Below are positions 20,578-27,648 of a DNA stretch of 33,795 nt, one piece after another. The position numbers and the translations under genes are program-made. Under the pieces are notes generated by a model, which saw nothing but the letters and a program-made list of their open reading frames with translations, did not search any database and was not told where the DNA came from. Where the stretch lies: positions 1-33,795 of the forward strand of contig JAFXLG010000055.1 in NCBI GenBank assembly GCA_017531305.1. Direction: 5' to 3'. Source of the DNA: Alistipes sp. (GTDB taxonomy: Bacteria > Bacteroidota > Bacteroidia > Bacteroidales > Rikenellaceae). The stretch's first letter is position 1. Each line of letters opens with the position of its first letter.

Positions 20578-22152
20578 ATGAAAAGAGTCAACCAGAAATT
20601 TATCTTCACGCTGACCGCATCAGCCACAGCTATAGCCTTGCCATCGTGCAAAGAGGCTCAACAAAAGGTCTGCCAGCAACCCAACATCGTATATATCATG
20701 ACCGATGATCATACGGCTCAGATGATGAGCTGTTATGACAAGCGTTATATATCTACCCCAAATCTGGATCGTATAGCCAGAGACGGAGTGCGATTCACCA
20801 ATAGTTTTGTCGCCAACTCGCTCAGCGGTCCGAGTCGTGCCTGCATGCTTACTGGTAAGCACTCGTCAGCCAATAAGTTTTACGATAACTCGACTTGCAT
20901 TTTTGACGGCAAACAACAGACATTCCCTAAGCTCTTGCAAAAGGCAGGTTATAAAACTGCCATCATAGGTAAGTGGCATCTGGAGAGTCTGCCCACAGGT
21001 TTTGACCACTGGGAGATTATCCCTGGGCAGGGTGATTACTACAACCCCAGCTTCATCACCATGCAGCAGGATACCATCACCGAGCAGGGCTATCTGACCA
21101 ATTTGATTACAGACAAGAGTCTAAAATGGATCGAAGAGCAGGAGAAGGATTCTCCTTTCTGCATCTTGATTCATCACAAGGCAGTGCATCGTAATTGGCT
21201 GCCAGAATTAAAATACATCAACGAATACGAGGACAAGACCTTCCCTCTACCCGACAACTTCTACGATGAATATGAAGGGCGTGAGGCCGCCAAAAGTCAG
21301 GAGATGCATATCCTCAAGGACATGGATCTGATCTACGACAACAAGGCTTTAGCCGAGGGCAAGAATTCGCGTCTGAAGGCTACATATCTGAATTTCATTG
21401 GTCGTCTGAGTGCTGAGGAGCGCAAGATATACGATGCTACGTACGACCCTATCACCGATGATTTCTACAAACAGAATCTTCAGGGCAAGGAGCTTGCCGA
21501 GTGGAAATATCAGCGTTATATGCGCGACTACGCCAAGGTGGTAAAGTCGCTGGATGATAATGTCGGCAGAGTTTTGGATTATTTGGAGCAGAAAGGATTG
21601 CTCGAAAATACGCTTGTGGTATATACTTCCGATCAGGGCTTCTACATGGGTGAGCATGGTTGGTTCGACAAGCGATTTATGTACGAAGAGTCGATGCGCA
21701 CGCCACTTGTAATGATGCTACCCGAGGGATACAACCATAAAGGCGACATCGAGCAGATGGTGCAGAATATAGACTATGCTCCCACATTCTTGGAGATGGC
21801 TGGCGTAGAGATCCCCGAAGATATACATGGCGAATCAATGGTGCCTCTGCTCAAGGGCGAGGATCCTGCCACATGGCGCAAATCGCTCTACTACCACTTC
21901 TACGAATATCCTGCCGAGCATATGGTCAAACGCCACTACGGAGTGCGTACCGAGCGTTACAAGCTCATACACTTCTACAACGACATAGACTCGTGGGAGT
22001 TATACGATCTGAAGGAAGATCCACAGGAGATGCACAACCTCTACCATAAGGCTGAGTACGCCCCCGTAATAAAGGAGCTGAAAGCCGAGCTATTACGTCT
22101 GCAAGAGCAGTATAACAATCCTGTGCGTTTCTCCACCGATCAAGACAGATAA
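20578..22152 (+). CDS. Ser-type sulfatase, exported lipoprotein
   Basis: A 524-residue sulfatase of the alkaline-phosphatase-like fold (S1 family) that should hydrolyse sulfate esters on host or dietary glycans. The N-terminus has a lipoprotein-like signal (lipobox LPSC, Cys24). Metal-binding Asp43-Asp44 lie in MTDDH. The active-site signature is S-L-S-G-P-S-R-A-C-M-L-T-G (residues 81-93); Ser83 is the residue to be converted to formylglycine. A Ser rather than Cys there marks the type matured by the anaerobic radical-SAM enzyme, encoded 5 bases downstream. Further conserved blocks are GKWHLESLP, IHHKAVHRNWLP and YTSDQGFYMGEHGWFDKRFMYEES (second metal and substrate region). The C-terminal domain (RTERYKLIHFYNDIDSWELYDLKEDP) is normal. 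The substrate cannot be read from sequence. Confidence 0.93.
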   Translation: MKRVNQKFIFTLTASATAIALPSCKEAQQKVCQQPNIVYIMTDDHTAQMMSCYDKRYISTPNLDRIARDGVRFTNSFVANSLSGPSRACMLTGKHSSANKFYDNSTCIFDGKQQTFPKLLQKAGYKTAIIGKWHLESLPTGFDHWEIIPGQGDYYNPSFITMQQDTITEQGYLTNLITDKSLKWIEEQEKDSPFCILIHHKAVHRNWLPELKYINEYEDKTFPLPDNFYDEYEGREAAKSQEMHILKDMDLIYDNKALAEGKNSRLKATYLNFIGRLSAEERKIYDATYDPITDDFYKQNLQGKELAEWKYQRYMRDYAKVVKSLDDNVGRVLDYLEQKGLLENTLVVYTSDQGFYMGEHGWFDKRFMYEESMRTPLVMMLPEGYNHKGDIEQMVQNIDYAPTFLEMAGVEIPEDIHGESMVPLLKGEDPATWRKSLYYHFYEYPAEHMVKRHYGVRTERYKLIHFYNDIDSWELYDLKEDPQEMHNLYHKAEYAPVIKELKAELLRLQEQYNNPVRFSTDQDR

Positions 22153-22157
22153 CACCT

Positions 22158-23372
22158 ATGGCGCAGGATTTGGTTTTCGGTCGCCCGCTTTATGTGATGG
22201 CAAAGCCCGCTGGAGCATCGTGCAACCTCAGATGCAAGTATTGCTATTATCTGGAAAAATCCACACTCACACCTCACCCCAAGCCCATGTCGGATGAGGT
22301 GCTGGAGAGTTTTGTGCGCCAATACATCGAGGCTCAGACCACGCTCGATGTAAACTTCACATGGCACGGCGGAGAGCCCCTCCTAAGACCTATATCATTC
22401 TACGAGAAGGCTTTACAGTATCAACAGCGATATGCCAGAGGGCGACAAATTTCAAACTGTATACAGACCAATGCTACGCTCATAGATGACAAGTGGGCAG
22501 AATTTTTTAGGCAAAACAATTTCCTTGTAGGGGTTTCGATAGATGGACCTCAAGTGATACATAACGCTTTGCGCAAGGATGCCACGGGTGAAGGCTCATA
22601 CCATGATGTGATGCGAGGGCTCAGAGCCTTAGCCCGCCATGGAGTGGAGTGGAATGCTATGGCGGTTGTAAATTCACTCAACGTGACAGATCCCGTAGGT
22701 TTTTATCGCTTCTTCCGCGATGAGTTAGATTGTCGTTTTTTGCAATTCACCCCCATCGTTGAACGTACGAAAACCACCGAAAATAGCACTCTGAGGCTCT
22801 GCTCGGGCAGAGAACAAGGCGGAGAGATCACCCCAGAGTCCATTACGCCAAAAGAGTGGGGCGATTTTCTTTGCGGGCTCTTCGATGAGTGGCTCAAAGA
22901 GGATGTCGGCAAAGTTTTTGTCCAGCTTTTCGACTCCACTCTGGCTTGTTGGGTGGGGGTCGAGCCCGGGGTTTGTACCATGAGTAAGTATTGCGGTCAT
23001 GCTGCCGTGATCGAGGCAAACGGAGATCTCTATTCATGTGACCACTTCGTGTTCGAGGAGTTCAAGTTGGGCAATATCCTCAGCCATCGACTCTCGGATA
23101 TGATGCGCTCGAAGCGACAAAACGAATTTGGCGCATGGAAACATCACTCTCTGCCACGCCAATGTCGCGAATGTGAATGGGAGTTCGCCTGCCACGGCGA
23201 ATGTCCCCGAAACCGCTTTGTGACCACTTCTAACGAAGAGTCGGGGCTGAATTATCTCTGCGAGGGGTATCGCCAATACTTCGAACACGTTGCACCATAT
23301 ATGGATTTTATGAAACGAGAATTGCAGGCAAATCGCGCTCCTGCCAATGTGATGAAGTGGGCAAGAGAGTAG
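22158..23372 (+). CDS. Anaerobic sulfatase-maturating enzyme (radical SAM, SPASM)
   Basis: A 404-residue cytoplasmic enzyme that oxidises the active-site Ser (or Cys) of sulfatases to formylglycine before export. The radical-SAM cluster motif is C22-x3-C26-x2-C29 in CNLRCKYCYYLEK, followed by the SAM-binding region FTWHGGEPLLRP. The C-terminal SPASM part shows the expected cysteines for two auxiliary clusters: CTMSKYCGHAAVIEANGDLY, then SCDHF, then QCRECEWEFACHGECPRNRF. Length and order agree with known anaerobic maturases. Its placement directly after a Ser-type sulfatase, with 5 bases between stop and ATG, strongly supports substrate and timing. No hairpin terminator follows; the next element is the promoter of the aromatic operon. 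Confidence 0.95.
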   Translation: MAQDLVFGRPLYVMAKPAGASCNLRCKYCYYLEKSTLTPHPKPMSDEVLESFVRQYIEAQTTLDVNFTWHGGEPLLRPISFYEKALQYQQRYARGRQISNCIQTNATLIDDKWAEFFRQNNFLVGVSIDGPQVIHNALRKDATGEGSYHDVMRGLRALARHGVEWNAMAVVNSLNVTDPVGFYRFFRDELDCRFLQFTPIVERTKTTENSTLRLCSGREQGGEITPESITPKEWGDFLCGLFDEWLKEDVGKVFVQLFDSTLACWVGVEPGVCTMSKYCGHAAVIEANGDLYSCDHFVFEEFKLGNILSHRLSDMMRSKRQNEFGAWKHHSLPRQCRECEWEFACHGECPRNRFVTTSNEESGLNYLCEGYRQYFEHVAPYMDFMKRELQANRAPANVMKWARE

Positions 23373-23442: not shown

Positions 23443-23474
23443 TTTTGATATATCGACTAAATAGGATATATTTG
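23443..23474 (+). promoter_or_regulatory. Promoter of the aromatic amino acid operon
   Basis: TTTTG at 23443-23447, 19 bases, then TATATTTG at 23467-23474: both boxes and the spacing match the Bacteroidetes consensus. Predicted start is near 23478, about 22 bases before the leader peptide and 166 bases before pheA. The stretch from 23373 to here is AT-rich and holds nothing else recognisable. Confidence 0.8.
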
Positions 23475-23499
23475 CCATAAGAAAATTTAGAGTTTATAC

Positions 23500-23568
23500 A
23501 TGAATACTTATTTCTTCTATAAGCGATTTTACTTTTACTGCACGAGCGGTCAGGTTGTCGTATGCTAA
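23500..23568 (+). CDS. Phe/Tyr-rich leader peptide of the pheA operon
   Basis: A 22-codon frame starts at ATG 23500 and stops at TAA 23566-23568. Its first 13 residues are MNTYFFYKRFYFY, so residues 4-13 include four Phe and four Tyr; the rest is a short polar-to-Val tail ending in Cys. Such a run of the operon's own end products is the hallmark of ribosome-mediated attenuation. The frame lies between a consensus promoter and an intrinsic terminator, and codons 17-19 contain the antiterminator arm GGTCAGG. The peptide itself has no expected function. Stalling at codons 4-13 when charged Phe- or Tyr-tRNA is scarce would leave that arm free. The gene is too short for standard gene finders. The chance of eight aromatic residues in 22 codons just here is low, but expression is unproven. 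Confidence 0.8.
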   Translation: MNTYFFYKRFYFYCTSGQVVVC

Positions 23569-23605
23569 TATGAAGATGATTCATGAAGTTATATTGATCC
23601 TGACC
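23548..23605 (+). promoter_or_regulatory. Antiterminator pairing of the pheA attenuator
   Basis: GGTCAGG (23548-23554, inside the leader peptide frame) is perfectly complementary to CCTGACC (23599-23605), which is the 5' arm of the terminator. The two structures are therefore mutually exclusive. A ribosome finishing the leader peptide covers the first arm and lets the terminator form; one stalled at the aromatic codons leaves it free. Confidence 0.7.
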
Positions 23606-23636
23606 CTGCGCTAATGTGGTCGGGATTTTATTTTTT
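23597..23636 (+). terminator. Attenuator terminator just before pheA
   Basis: ATCCTGACC (23597-23605) pairs with GGTCGGGAT (23618-23626) over 9 positions with one U-G, loop of 12 bases, followed by TTTATTTTTT. It ends 8 bases before the pheA ATG and thus lies within the operon leader, as expected of an attenuator. Confidence 0.8.
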
Positions 23637-23643
23637 AAGTAAA

Positions 23644-24453
23644 ATGTTGAATATAGCCATACAAGGATACGAAGCGTGTTTCCATCATATCGCAGCCATT
23701 CAGTACTTTGGTCGCGACATTCAGATCATTCCGTGCGACACATTTCGCGCTGTAGCCGAAGCGGTAAAGAAGGGTGAGGCAAATATGGGATTGATGGCAA
23801 TAGAGAACTCCATCGCAGGATCTATAATCCCAAACTACAAGATCCTTCAAGACAACAATCTACAGGTGGCAGGCGAGGTATATCTGCCCATCAAGCAAAA
23901 TCTGATGGTACTGCCCGATGTGGAGTTGGAAGATATTCGTGAGGTGGAATCTCACTCGATGGCACTTTTGCAATGCGATGAGTATCTGGATCAATTTGAT
24001 TGGAAGCTCATCGAGTCGGACGATACCGCACTGAGTGCCAAGCATATCGCAGAGAAAGGACTACGCCATACGGCAGCCATAGCAAGCGAGTTGGCGGCAG
24101 AGATCTACGGGCTAAAGATCATTGCTCCAGAGATCAATACGGTAAAGAGTAATTACACTCGTTTTATGGTGCTTAAACGCTATGATCACCAGATGGATCC
24201 ACTCTCAAACAAGGCTTCGCTATACTTTAAGACCGATCACGCCGAAGGATCACTCCTCAGAGCATTGAGTCAGTTGCAGGGCATAAACCTATCCAAGCTG
24301 CAATCATACCCAATCCCGAGCGAGCCATGGCACTATATGTTCCACATAGATTTGGAATTTAAGTCACTCGATGATTATATTCGCAATCTGAATAACCTGC
24401 AAAGCGTAACCCAAGATCTGCACGTTTATGGAGTATATCGCAGTGGCAAATAG
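23644..24453 (+). CDS. pheA: Prephenate dehydratase
   Basis: Converts prephenate to phenylpyruvate in phenylalanine synthesis. The ATG at 23644 (270 residues) gives MLNIAIQGYEACFHHIAA, which aligns with the usual start of the dehydratase domain. An in-frame ATG at 23614 would add ten residues encoded by the terminator. Catalytic region: MGLMAIENSIAGSI (about 58-71) and the essential Thr-Arg-Phe in NYTRFMVL (about 165-172). A regulatory ACT domain follows (about 185-268). Its usual GAL and ESRP phenylalanine-binding motifs are changed (GSLLRAL and LQSYP), so feedback inhibition by Phe may be weak or different. There is no fused chorismate mutase here; that activity sits on the fourth gene of the operon. 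It is controlled by the leader attenuator directly upstream. Confidence 0.93.
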   Translation: MLNIAIQGYEACFHHIAAIQYFGRDIQIIPCDTFRAVAEAVKKGEANMGLMAIENSIAGSIIPNYKILQDNNLQVAGEVYLPIKQNLMVLPDVELEDIREVESHSMALLQCDEYLDQFDWKLIESDDTALSAKHIAEKGLRHTAAIASELAAEIYGLKIIAPEINTVKSNYTRFMVLKRYDHQMDPLSNKASLYFKTDHAEGSLLRALSQLQGINLSKLQSYPIPSEPWHYMFHIDLEFKSLDDYIRNLNNLQSVTQDLHVYGVYRSGK

Positions 24454-24507: not shown

Positions 24508-25686
24508 ATGGCAAAGGTTGAGATCGCTCCTGCAAGTCGCATGGACTGTATTAAGGAGTATTATTTTTCAAAGAAGAACCGCGAAATCGCAGAGTTGCGT
24601 AAGGCTGGTCGTGATATCATCAGTTTGGGTATCGGTAGCCCCGATATGCCACCAGCAGATTCAGTAATCGAGCGTCTTGGCAAAGAGGCACAGCGTCCCG
24701 ATGTACACGCATATCAGCCATACAACGGTAGTGACCTTTTGCGTCAGGCTTACGCCGACTGGTACGAGAAGTGGTACAACGTGAAGCTTAACCCAAAGAA
24801 CGAGGTGTTGCCACTTTTGGGCTCTAAGGAGGGCATCATGCACATCTGCATGGCATTCCTCAACGAAGGTGACAAGGTATTGGTACCAAACCCAGGCTAC
24901 CCTACCTATCGCGCTGCCGTGACATTGGCAGGAGGCGAGGTTGTGGAGTATCACCTAAATGCTGCTAACGGCTTCTACCCTGATTTCGAGCAGATCGAGA
25001 AGGAGGATTTGCAGAACGTGAAGCTCATGTTCGTCAACTACCCTAATATGCCTACAGGTACTCACCCAACAGTGGAGCTCTTCGAGAAGTTGGTTGCCTT
25101 TGCTGGTAAGCACAACATCCTTTTGGTACACGACAATCCATATAGCTTCGTGAGAAACAATCTCCAGCTCTCGATCCTCTCTATCCCTGGAGCATGGGAT
25201 GTAGCCATCGAGATGAACTCGACAAGTAAGGGTCACTCTATGGCTGGTTGGCGCGTAGGCGCAGTGGTTGGTCGTTCGGAGTGGTTGAGCGACATCTTGC
25301 GCTTTAAGTCAAACATGGATTCAGGTATGTTCTACCCTGTGCAGGCTGCTGCTGCCGAGGCTTTGAGCTTGGGTATGGAGTGGTTTGATGAATTGAACAA
25401 GACATACTACGAGCGCGAGGCTGAGGGTTATGCTTTACTCGATGCACTCGGATGTAAGTACGAGAAGGGACAGGCAGGTCTGTTCGTTTGGGCTGCTATG
25501 CCAGAGGATTTCGATGGCGATTGCTTCGCATTCTCGGACAAGGTGCTTGATGAGTGTGATGTATTTGTCACTCCTGGCGGAATCTTCGGTTCGGAGGGTA
25601 ACAAGTATATTCGCATCTCACTCTGCATGCCTAAGGAGCGTTTGGCTGAGGCTGCCGAGCGAGCAAGAACACGTTTCCAGAAATAA
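24508..25686 (+). CDS. PLP-dependent aminotransferase, class I/II (likely aromatic/aspartate-type)
   Basis: A 392-residue fold-type I aminotransferase. PLP-binding features are in order: the cofactor Tyr region AYQPYNGSDLLRQAY (68-82), NPGYPTYR (128-135), NYPNMPTG (177-184; the second Asn of the usual NNPTG is Met), HDNPYS with Asp209, and Schiff-base Lys241 in STSKGHSMAGWRVG. The closing Arg that binds the substrate carboxylate is likely in YIRISLCMP near the C-terminus. In Bacteroidetes the same gene sits in the phe/tyr operon, so it probably converts phenylpyruvate and hydroxyphenylpyruvate to Phe and Tyr. Similarity to LL-diaminopimelate and alanine aminotransferases means specificity is inferred from context. 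It begins 54 bases after pheA, in a stretch without a promoter box. Confidence 0.88.
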   Translation: MAKVEIAPASRMDCIKEYYFSKKNREIAELRKAGRDIISLGIGSPDMPPADSVIERLGKEAQRPDVHAYQPYNGSDLLRQAYADWYEKWYNVKLNPKNEVLPLLGSKEGIMHICMAFLNEGDKVLVPNPGYPTYRAAVTLAGGEVVEYHLNAANGFYPDFEQIEKEDLQNVKLMFVNYPNMPTGTHPTVELFEKLVAFAGKHNILLVHDNPYSFVRNNLQLSILSIPGAWDVAIEMNSTSKGHSMAGWRVGAVVGRSEWLSDILRFKSNMDSGMFYPVQAAAAEALSLGMEWFDELNKTYYEREAEGYALLDALGCKYEKGQAGLFVWAAMPEDFDGDCFAFSDKVLDECDVFVTPGGIFGSEGNKYIRISLCMPKERLAEAAERARTRFQK

Positions 25687-25716
25687 TTAACGACCAACCT
25701 TAGAGAGCCTTTGGCA

Positions 25717-26559
25717 ATGAAAACTGCAATTATCGGGTTGGGACTTATCGGTGGATCGTTTGCCCTGAGTCTAAAGGACAAAGGGCTGAGCGATCACATT
25801 TGGGGTGTCGAGCAGTCGGAGCGCAACGCCCAGAAAGCCCTCGAGATGGGTTTGGTGGAGCAAATTTGCACTCTGGAGGAGGCACTCAAGGAGTGTAGGC
25901 TCATAGTTCTGGCAACTCCCGTAGATACCATACCCACGTTGGCGATCAAGATCCTGAATCGCATACGTCCCGACCAGATCCTTATGGATATGGGCTCCAC
26001 CAAACAGGAACTTTGCGAGATGACCATGATGCACCCCAAAAGAGGACGTCTGGTGGCATCGCATCCTATGTGGGGTACCGAGAATAGTGGTCCCGAAGCT
26101 GCCATGCACGGCGCATTCAAGGGGCGCACGGTGGTAATCTGCAACTGCGAACAGAGCGATATGGATGCCCTTCAGGTGGTTGAAGATATCTATCGTCAGC
26201 TTGACATGCCAATACTCCATATGTCTGCCGAGGATCAGGATATGCACTGCGCCTATGTATCGCACATCTCGCATATCACATCCTTTGCTCTGGCTCTTAC
26301 GGTGTTGGAAAAGGAGCGCGAAGAGGAGCATATCTTTGACCTTGCGGGCGGAGGTTTCGAATCTACAGTTCGTTTGGCAAAGAGTCTGCCTCAGACTTGG
26401 GCTCCGATATTTTTGGAGAATAAATACAACGTGCTTGACGTGTTGCGAGAGCATATTCATCAGTTGCAGATCCTTAGACGCATGATCGAGCGCGATGACA
26501 GAGAAGGTCTTATGGAGGCTATGAAGAAAGCCAACAAGATCAGAGAGATTTTGAAATAG
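25717..26559 (+). CDS. tyrA: Prephenate dehydrogenase
   Basis: Oxidative decarboxylation of prephenate to 4-hydroxyphenylpyruvate for tyrosine. The ATG at 25717 is preferred over a TTG two codons earlier, since it opens directly with MKTAIIGLGLIGGSFALSL (280 residues). The Rossmann motif GLGLIGG (7-13) and the acidic Glu32 at the end of strand two indicate NAD rather than NADP. Active-site features of the family are seen in LATPVDTIP, DMGSTKQ, SHPMWGTENSGPEAA (catalytic His region) and HCAYVSHISHITSFALA in the C-terminal helical dimer domain. There is no ACT domain. It is 30 bases after the aminotransferase and 18 before the DAHP synthase gene, within the attenuator-controlled operon. Having pheA and tyrA on one transcript explains why the leader encodes both Phe and Tyr. 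Confidence 0.94.
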   Translation: MKTAIIGLGLIGGSFALSLKDKGLSDHIWGVEQSERNAQKALEMGLVEQICTLEEALKECRLIVLATPVDTIPTLAIKILNRIRPDQILMDMGSTKQELCEMTMMHPKRGRLVASHPMWGTENSGPEAAMHGAFKGRTVVICNCEQSDMDALQVVEDIYRQLDMPILHMSAEDQDMHCAYVSHISHITSFALALTVLEKEREEEHIFDLAGGGFESTVRLAKSLPQTWAPIFLENKYNVLDVLREHIHQLQILRRMIERDDREGLMEAMKKANKIREILK

Positions 26560-26577: not shown

Positions 26578-27648
26578 ATGGGAAAGTTTACACTTGGGCA
26601 AAAACGCCCTTTGATTATAGCAGGTCCTTGTAGTGCCGAGACTCGCGAGCAGACTTTGGAGACTGCACTAAGACTTGCACGTTCGGGTAAAGTTGATGTC
26701 ATTAGAGCTGGAATCTGGAAGCCACGCACCAAACCAGGCACATTCGAAGGTATCGGCGAAATTGGACTCGATTGGCTTAACGAGGTAAAAGAGCAGACGG
26801 GTATTCCTATCGCTGTCGAGATTGCCAACCGCACTCACGTTGAGATTGCTCTGAAGCATGGCGTGGATATACTCTGGATCGGTGCGCGTACCACCGTTTC
26901 GCCATTTGCCGTACAGGAGATCGCCGAGGCGTTGCACGACAATAAGGATGTTACGGTCTTGATTAAAAACCCAATGACTCCCGACATTAACCTTTGGGAG
27001 GGTGCTGTAAAGCGTCTTATTGCCGAGGGAGTGCCTGAGAAGAACATCGGACTCATCCATCGTGGATTCTCATACTTTGGACATAGCACATACCGCAATC
27101 CACCTATGTGGCACATGATCTTCGATATGCGAAGCCGCTTCCCTGATATGATGATGATCTGCGATCCATCACACATCTGCGGTTGCCGTCCTCTGCTTTT
27201 GGGTATAGCTCAGCAGTCGGCAGACCTGTGCTTCGATGGTCTGATGATCGAGAGCCATATCGACCCCGACAAAGCGTGGAGCGATGCTTCTCAGCAGGTG
27301 ACACCAGAGGATTGCCTCAACATCATTGACAACATCATGTGGCGTAAGAAGAATGCCGAAGATCCCGAATTCAATAGCGAGCTCAATATCTGCCGTCAGA
27401 AGATCGACCAGATTGACTCAGAGTTATTCGATCTTTTGAGTCAGCGTATGCGTACTGCCGACAAGATCGGTCAGATCAAGAAGGCGAGCAACGTGGCGAT
27501 TTTGCAGAGCAACCGCTGGAACGAGATCACCCGCCGTATGGTATCAATGACGCGTGGTATGGGACTTAGCGAGGAGTTTGTAAATACTGTTTTGGAGGCT
27601 ATCCACATGGAGAGTATCAACCACCAGAACGAGATTATGAATAAATAG
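26578..27648 (+). CDS. Bifunctional DAHP synthase / chorismate mutase
   Basis: Fusion of the first step of aromatic synthesis (erythrose-4-phosphate plus PEP to DAHP) and the chorismate-to-prephenate step. Residues about 1-250 are a type I-beta, KDO8P-like synthase: LIIAGPCSAE (12-21), VIRAGIWKPRTKPGTFEG, IAVEIANRTHVE, ILWIGARTTVSPF, VLIKNPM, LIHRGFSYFG, and MMICDPSHICG with the metal-binding region. Residues about 265-356 form an AroQ-type chorismate mutase helix bundle (ICRQKIDQIDSELFDLLSQRM, then KIGQIKKASNVAILQSNRW). In Bacillus-type relatives the mutase is N-terminal and gives feedback; here it is C-terminal. The protein supplies prephenate to pheA and tyrA of the same operon. It is the last gene; a weak hairpin after the stop lacks a T-run. 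Confidence 0.93.
   Translation: MGKFTLGQKRPLIIAGPCSAETREQTLETALRLARSGKVDVIRAGIWKPRTKPGTFEGIGEIGLDWLNEVKEQTGIPIAVEIANRTHVEIALKHGVDILWIGARTTVSPFAVQEIAEALHDNKDVTVLIKNPMTPDINLWEGAVKRLIAEGVPEKNIGLIHRGFSYFGHSTYRNPPMWHMIFDMRSRFPDMMMICDPSHICGCRPLLLGIAQQSADLCFDGLMIESHIDPDKAWSDASQQVTPEDCLNIIDNIMWRKKNAEDPEFNSELNICRQKIDQIDSELFDLLSQRMRTADKIGQIKKASNVAILQSNRWNEITRRMVSMTRGMGLSEEFVNTVLEAIHMESINHQNEIMNK

Follow-up and report, generated by a model that had tools for sequence, protein, structure and literature searches.

A predicted phenylalanine/tyrosine leader-peptide attenuator upstream of the pheA operon in an Alistipes genome and its relatives in Bacteroidia

The operon composed of pheA, an aminotransferase gene, tyrA and a DAHP synthase/chorismate mutase gene is very probably controlled by a ribosome-mediated transcription attenuator, which would sense both charged tRNA-Phe and charged tRNA-Tyr. 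The element was analysed in a stretch of 33,795 nucleotides of Alistipes sp. DNA (GenBank assembly GCA_017531305.1, contig JAFXLG010000055.1), hereafter the window. The anatomy of the element, its conservation, the alternative pairing of its arms and their geometry can be read from the DNA of the window and its relatives. It is likely that it belongs to a class-wide family of pheA attenuators of Bacteroidia, which carry Phe and Tyr codons (about a quarter of them also Trp), have an antiterminator arm some 10 nt downstream of these codons and occur in tandem in 14 families.

The leader and the operon in the window

The initial annotation had proposed a consensus promoter, a leader frame of 22 codons with four Phe and four Tyr within codons 4-13, an arm inside this frame complementary to the 5' arm of a terminator, and a T-rich tail ending 8 positions before pheA, followed by the four genes of the operon. 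All of these elements were found in their places (Table 1). The promoter is a Bacteroidota-type one and fits the sigma-ABfr consensus TTTG / TAnnTTTG, as given in the accessible text of PMC7366714. The same annotation had the arms right and had overlooked a competing hairpin, formed by segments 1 and 2.

Table 1. Features of the pheA leader and operon in the window (positions in the window, forward strand)
Feature	Positions	Strand	Details	Basis
Promoter	23443..23474	+	-33 TTTTG 23443-23447, 19 nt, -7 TATATTTG 23467-23474	read directly
Leader peptide ORF	23500..23568	+	MNTYFFYKRFYFYCTSGQVVVC; ATG 23500, stop TAA 23566-23568, 22 codons	
Control codons 4-7	23509..23520	+	Tyr Phe Phe Tyr	read directly
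Control codons 10-13	23527..23538	+	Phe Tyr Phe Tyr	read directly
Segment 1	23537..23541	+	ACTGC, pairs with 23546-23550 (GCGGT); 1:2 hairpin, loop ACGA	
Segment 2, antiterminator 5' arm	23546..23554	+	GGTCAGG core 23548-23554	
Small hairpin inside antiterminator loop	23570..23584	+	ATGAA-GATGA-TTCAT	alignment and folding
Segment 3, antiterminator 3' arm and terminator 5' arm	23597..23605	+	ATCCTGACC; CCTGACC 23599-23605	
Segment 4, terminator 3' arm	23618..23626	+	GGTCGGGAT	sequence and folding
T-rich terminator tail	23626..23636	+	TTTTATTTTTT	read directly
pheA	23644..24453	+	prephenate dehydratase	ORF and protein search
Aminotransferase gene	24508..25686	+	class I/II	ORF and protein search
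tyrA	25711..26559	+	prephenate dehydrogenase	ORF and protein search
DAHP synthase gene	26578..27648	+	fused chorismate mutase domain	ORF and protein search

The duplex program lengthened segment 2 to 23544-23560. In the fold search, the terminator hairpin of the window's own copy (row L035) had an energy of -14.4 kcal/mol and a loop of 12 nt. Its T tract is interrupted by one A, and 7 bases separate the end of the tail from the pheA ATG. A generic terminator scan reported none at the pheA leader, the loop limit of that scan being 8 nt, against the 12-nt loop found here. An in-frame ATG lies in the terminator loop (window 23614-23643), from which pheA would gain 10 codons; this start is probably not used, since close relatives align at 23644.

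The genome of the window (G000) comprises 2.05 Mb and is 87% complete. The best titled match of its PheA was that of an Alistipes sp. MAG, with 95% identity. The order of the four genes was the same in 28/28 loci with a length of 8.9 kb or more, most of them from the window's own family (Rikenellaceae). Upstream of the leader, window positions 20578-23372 hold a gene that was called sulfatase-like on the basis of its sequence, and then the gene of an anaerobic sulfatase-maturation radical SAM protein.

Ribosome stalling, termination and the response to amino acids at this leader are what we infer from the arrangement. When charged tRNA-Phe or tRNA-Tyr is scarce, the leading ribosome would be slowed on the Phe and Tyr codons 4-13, leaving segment 2, about one half-footprint beyond, unpaired. 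Free segment 2 would then pair with segment 3 to form the antiterminator, and the polymerase would continue into the pheA operon. When Phe and Tyr are both ample, the ribosome would reach the stop codon and mask segment 2, so that segments 3 and 4 would form the terminator and transcription would end before pheA. If the leader is not translated at all, the 1:2 hairpin would favour termination. Because a shortage of either amino acid would suffice, the leader would follow an OR logic, which suits an operon for both branches and for the entry enzyme.

Alternative pairing and spacing of the arms

By sequence and folding, the window contains the complete set of four segments known from classical ribosome-mediated attenuators. 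When the leader RNA was left free from 23490, the 1:2 hairpin and the terminator were formed; when it was free from 23530, or from 23540 (to 23610), the antiterminator was obtained; and when it was free only from 23555, the terminator was formed again. These three predicted folds match the three states of the classical attenuator. Among 100 non-redundant representatives, the full untranslated leader folded into the terminator in 89 and into the antiterminator in 11. When the ribosome was placed at the leader stop, the terminator was predicted in 100/100, and the 2:3 pairing formed in 99/100 when segments 2 to 3 alone were out. With segments 2 to 4 and the T tract all free, the antiterminator was the better fold by minimum energy in only 27/100, so the order of synthesis must matter.

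The arms were compared across the same 100 representatives by exchanging partners. The mean energy of the 2:3 pairing was -13.7 kcal/mol for own partners and -9.04 kcal/mol (sd 0.25) for permuted ones, and the lowest of 5000 partner permutations reached -9.985 kcal/mol. The own segment 3 was better than at least 90% of foreign segments 3 in 59/100, and not in the remaining 41. Against shuffled spacers, 2:3 complementarity reached p 0.05 in 115/151. Judged by these sequences, the antiterminator arms co-evolve with the terminator 5' arm across the phylum sample.

Covariation was also examined within the close clade. In 24 close sequences the 2:3 helix was intact in all with no double change, five of its seven pairs being invariant and two varying only to G-U, and the 3:4 helix, with 99.1% of cells intact, showed one double change. 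In the 1:2 hairpin, 97.5% of pair cells were kept, the innermost pair being U-A in 15 sequences, C-G in 8 and U-G in 1. The covariation score of this hairpin was reached by 0/500 shuffles, a kind of score that kinship alone can give without structure, and the change from U-A to C-G seen in 8 related sequences may go back to few events. Taken alone, the window's 1:2 hairpin did not exceed the stability of shuffles (z 0.40), and phylum-wide such a hairpin was above shuffles (z of -1.64 or lower) in just 38/100.

The position of segment 2 was also determined. Its start lay at a median of 10 nt (quartiles 8 and 12) past the last aromatic codon (n=100), and at 5-15 nt in 92/100, compared with 23% in shuffles. 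In the window, the distance from the last control codon is 9 nt to the GGTCAGG core and 5 nt to the extended duplex. With respect to the end of the leader stop codon, the start of segment 2 varied between 47 nt upstream and 7 nt downstream (n=100). In 13/100 it was located entirely 3' of the stop codon, where coding cannot explain its placement. Taking the size of the ribosome footprint into account, this half-footprint spacing would reflect a demand of the leading edge of the stalled ribosome.

Alternatively, a ligand- or tRNA-binding leader, i.e. a riboswitch or a T-box, could be the sensor, the peptide being incidental. The output of riboswitches and T-boxes likewise consists of alternative terminator and antiterminator folds, which speaks for this explanation. 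It is nonetheless highly unlikely, considering that the leader RNA has about 150 nt, nearly half of which is ORF, that the position of the arm follows the last aromatic codon, and that no Rfam family was found at gathering score at the window leader, an undescribed aptamer being possible despite Rfam. Over the whole window, the Rfam scan at gathering score gave no leader family and one tRNA elsewhere. Eight further matches below threshold were judged to be chance (best E-value 1.6). In 15 relatives the scan gave just two Flavo-1 matches, both in L107 and neither at its leader.

Conservation, tandem units and other leaders

Of the regions upstream of pheA in 282 loci, the 257 distinct ones were retained, and a leader was defined by at least 6 Phe, Tyr or Trp in 12 residues, no more than 420 nt upstream of pheA. 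Before pheA, aromatic-rich leaders were found in 106/120 family regions, in 81/88 order regions and in 28/49 regions from the phylum sample; a terminator of at most -7 kcal/mol accompanied them in 96/120, 77/88 and 28/49, respectively. The start codon was ATG in 211/215 leaders and GTG in 4/215. Under a stricter rule (ATG only, 300 nt), a leader was present in 208/257 regions and a leader with terminator in 196/257. With this rule, 27/30 pheA starts in the long loci had a leader and 25/30 a leader with terminator, compared with 1/307 and 0/307, respectively, for other gene starts.

The enrichment was also evaluated against shuffled DNA. An ATG ORF with at least 8 Phe or Tyr in 12 residues arose in 1/5000 dinucleotide shuffles of the 300 nt upstream of pheA in the window. 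A Phe/Tyr score of at least 8 was reached in 125/178 distinct upstream regions vs 0/3560 dinucleotide shuffles.

These results bear on the proposal that the terminator merely ends the transcript of the upstream radical SAM maturase gene (22158-23372) and that the leader ORF is an AT-rich accident. Intergenic DNA and Phe and Tyr codons are both AT-rich, and a score of at least 6 did arise in 64/3560 shuffles. However, the leader and its arms recur in divergent genomes with different neighbourhoods, a relative of the maturase was present in only 5/28 long loci, and an accident is contradicted by the arm-swap and spacing tests and by the low count at control starts, which makes this explanation extremely unlikely.

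The phylum set was found to divide in two: a leader was present in 28/29 of the best-matching pheA regions and in 0/20 of the weakly matching ones, which belong to other classes. The former (L094-L122) are the best-scoring loci and not a random draw, and the latter (L263-L282) were hand-picked from the weak part of the list. Four genomes of other classes with better-matching PheA (L094, L102, L109 and L117) all carry the leader, perhaps acquired by operon transfer. Recurrence of aromatic leaders and alternative pairing in relatives supports the attenuator proposed in the initial annotation, and the outcome is favourable overall, with the exception of 22/237 regions of the usual carriers (family, order and best-matching phylum sets), where no leader was detected within 420 nt (e.g. 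L023 and L024). Among the leaderless regions, L086, L151, L156 and L235 have a candidate that is weaker or farther away, and L105 and L175 follow immediately on another ORF.

At least two Phe and at least two Tyr codons were present in 96/100 representatives, and Trp in 25/100. Both Phe and Tyr were found among the last five control codons in 94/100. A TAnnTTTG -7 box was located no more than 110 nt before the first leader ATG in 76/100, vs 6.9% of shuffles. Within a single genus (e.g. L179-L202), PheA was either about 80-86% or about 40% identical to that of the window, and both kinds were preceded by aromatic leaders with different arms. Given these two kinds of PheA, operon replacement within the window's genus is possible.

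An excess of synonymous changes in the leader ORF was observed in three clades (observed vs expected 0.33/0.19, 0.24/0.17 and 0.39/0.20), the middle value being based on 17 codon-type pairs. The conserved ORF and its synonymous excess would also be compatible with a small functional protein, and leader genes near gene starts have been proposed to aid initiation, according to the accessible part of PMC4833913; but a role of the peptide as such, or in pheA translation by reinitiation, with no attenuation, is barely credible, given that the peptides of the clades look unlike one another outside the Phe/Tyr run, in which Phe and Tyr interchange (listed, uncounted), and that 75 nt, including the terminator, separate the leader stop from pheA, more than the Bacteroidetes peak of 11-14 bp in that part of the paper.

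The window itself holds a single attenuator unit. In 21 loci, two Phe/Tyr leaders were found in series before pheA, each with its own terminator (L065, L066, L072, L075, L077, L078, L080, L087, L089, L092, L099, L100, L208, L212, L219, L220, L224, L234, L238, L243 and L260). They comprise 19/88 regions of the order, 2/49 of the phylum and 0/120 of the family, and correspond to 14 families under this analysis's own grouping of genomes. The 2:3 complementarity was above shuffles (p 0.05) in 17 first units and 18 second units of the 21 loci, and in both units in 16 loci (13 families); it failed in at least one unit in L065, L066, L089, L100 and L220. The tandem arms paired better with their own partner than with that of the other unit in 36/42 comparisons. 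A -7 motif was present before the first leader in 12/21 and none was found between the two leaders in 21/21 loci, so both units apparently share one transcript. If this is true, serial attenuators for the same amino acids would multiply two termination steps, thereby sharpening the response. With one attenuator in some genomes and two in others before the same operon, nature provides a comparison in which the question of why two are placed in series is directly testable.

Regarding tryptophan, no match to trpE or trpD was found in the window's genome (87% complete), so among the aromatic amino acids chorismate may here feed only Phe and Tyr. In the family, trpD was present in 32/200 genomes, just one of those 32 belonging to the window's genus. 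In the pooled data, leaders contained Trp in 28/83 genomes with trpD vs 11/93 others (p 0.0005), a link between Trp codons and trp synthesis that is unproven, the values being p 0.41 within the family and p 0.42 within the order, with some Trp codons outside the control run.

Two other leaders were observed in the same genome. The first, MRINRSYMLHHHHIVFR, with four His codons, lies just upstream of hisG (L283, contig C17, reverse strand 1354-1407), flanked by a TATATTTG box on its 5' side and a terminator on its 3' side; this is probably another attenuator built in the same way. The second, MNMTFFGLYIISLSLVLLLR, is rich in Ile, Leu and Val and lies upstream of ilvD (L284, contig C62, reverse strand 1287-1349). 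It is followed by a strong hairpin with a poor T tract, which was rejected by the terminator search.

Comparison with known systems

The pheA and pheST leaders of E. coli (pheL and pheM; Rfam Phe_leader) are Phe-rich leader-peptide attenuators. The window element resembles them in a Phe-rich leader peptide before pheA, in mutually exclusive 2:3 and 3:4 helices and in an intrinsic terminator. It differs in that Phe and Tyr codons are mixed, the operon spans both branches and DAHP synthase, and the leader ORF encloses segments 1 and 2. No match was obtained with Rfam Phe_leader or other leader models. A comparative paper on attenuation from 2004 reportedly mentions Bacteroidetes.

In the literature found, little is said on how gut Bacteroidota regulate the synthesis of amino acids. 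The initial annotation had regarded such leaders as far less documented in Bacteroidetes, which is right, though they are not undocumented, as seen in the accessible text of PMC1173090 and PMC9723704. A putative attenuator before pheA > hisHb > aroAIb-aroQ > tyrA of Bacteroides thetaiotaomicron was listed in 2005 (Merino database; Table 7 of PMC1173090). According to that entry, the gene set of the operon and the class are the same as in the window, and the attenuator is likewise predicted. Neither a leader peptide nor the amino acids sensed nor a comparative test is given in the accessible entry. In the same species, short ORFs reminiscent of leader peptides were noted, in a text whose accessible part does not name phenylalanine (PMC7366714).

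For Flavobacterium psychrophilum, structured 5' elements of pheA and hisG and clues to leader peptides before amino acid operons were described in 2021, the pheA element being conserved in Flavobacteriaceae (PMC9723704, accessible text). Those elements share with the present one the phylum Bacteroidota, a suggested leader-peptide attenuation and the lack of an Rfam match. They belong to Flavobacteriaceae, and the codons, the arm geometry and the tandem units described here are not covered in the accessible text of that study. With regard to the tandem units of the relatives, the mgtCBR leader of Salmonella likewise carries two leader ORFs, one behind the other in a single transcript. From what is accessible of PMC3641672, its units answer different signals (ATP and proline), whereas both tandem units of the relatives are rich in Phe and Tyr and have their own terminators.

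A literature search, in which few subscription papers were covered, gave no recognisable Phe and Tyr leader family in Bacteroidota and no recognisable tandem amino acid attenuators for the same signal. The class-wide extent, the predicted joint sensing of Phe and Tyr and the same-signal tandem were not met with in this search. From the attenuator, an on/off rule for aromatic synthesis is predicted class-wide, and the spacing rule suggests a simple search for further leaders in Bacteroidota. The window element is a well-supported further example of the already predicted pheA attenuators of Bacteroidota.
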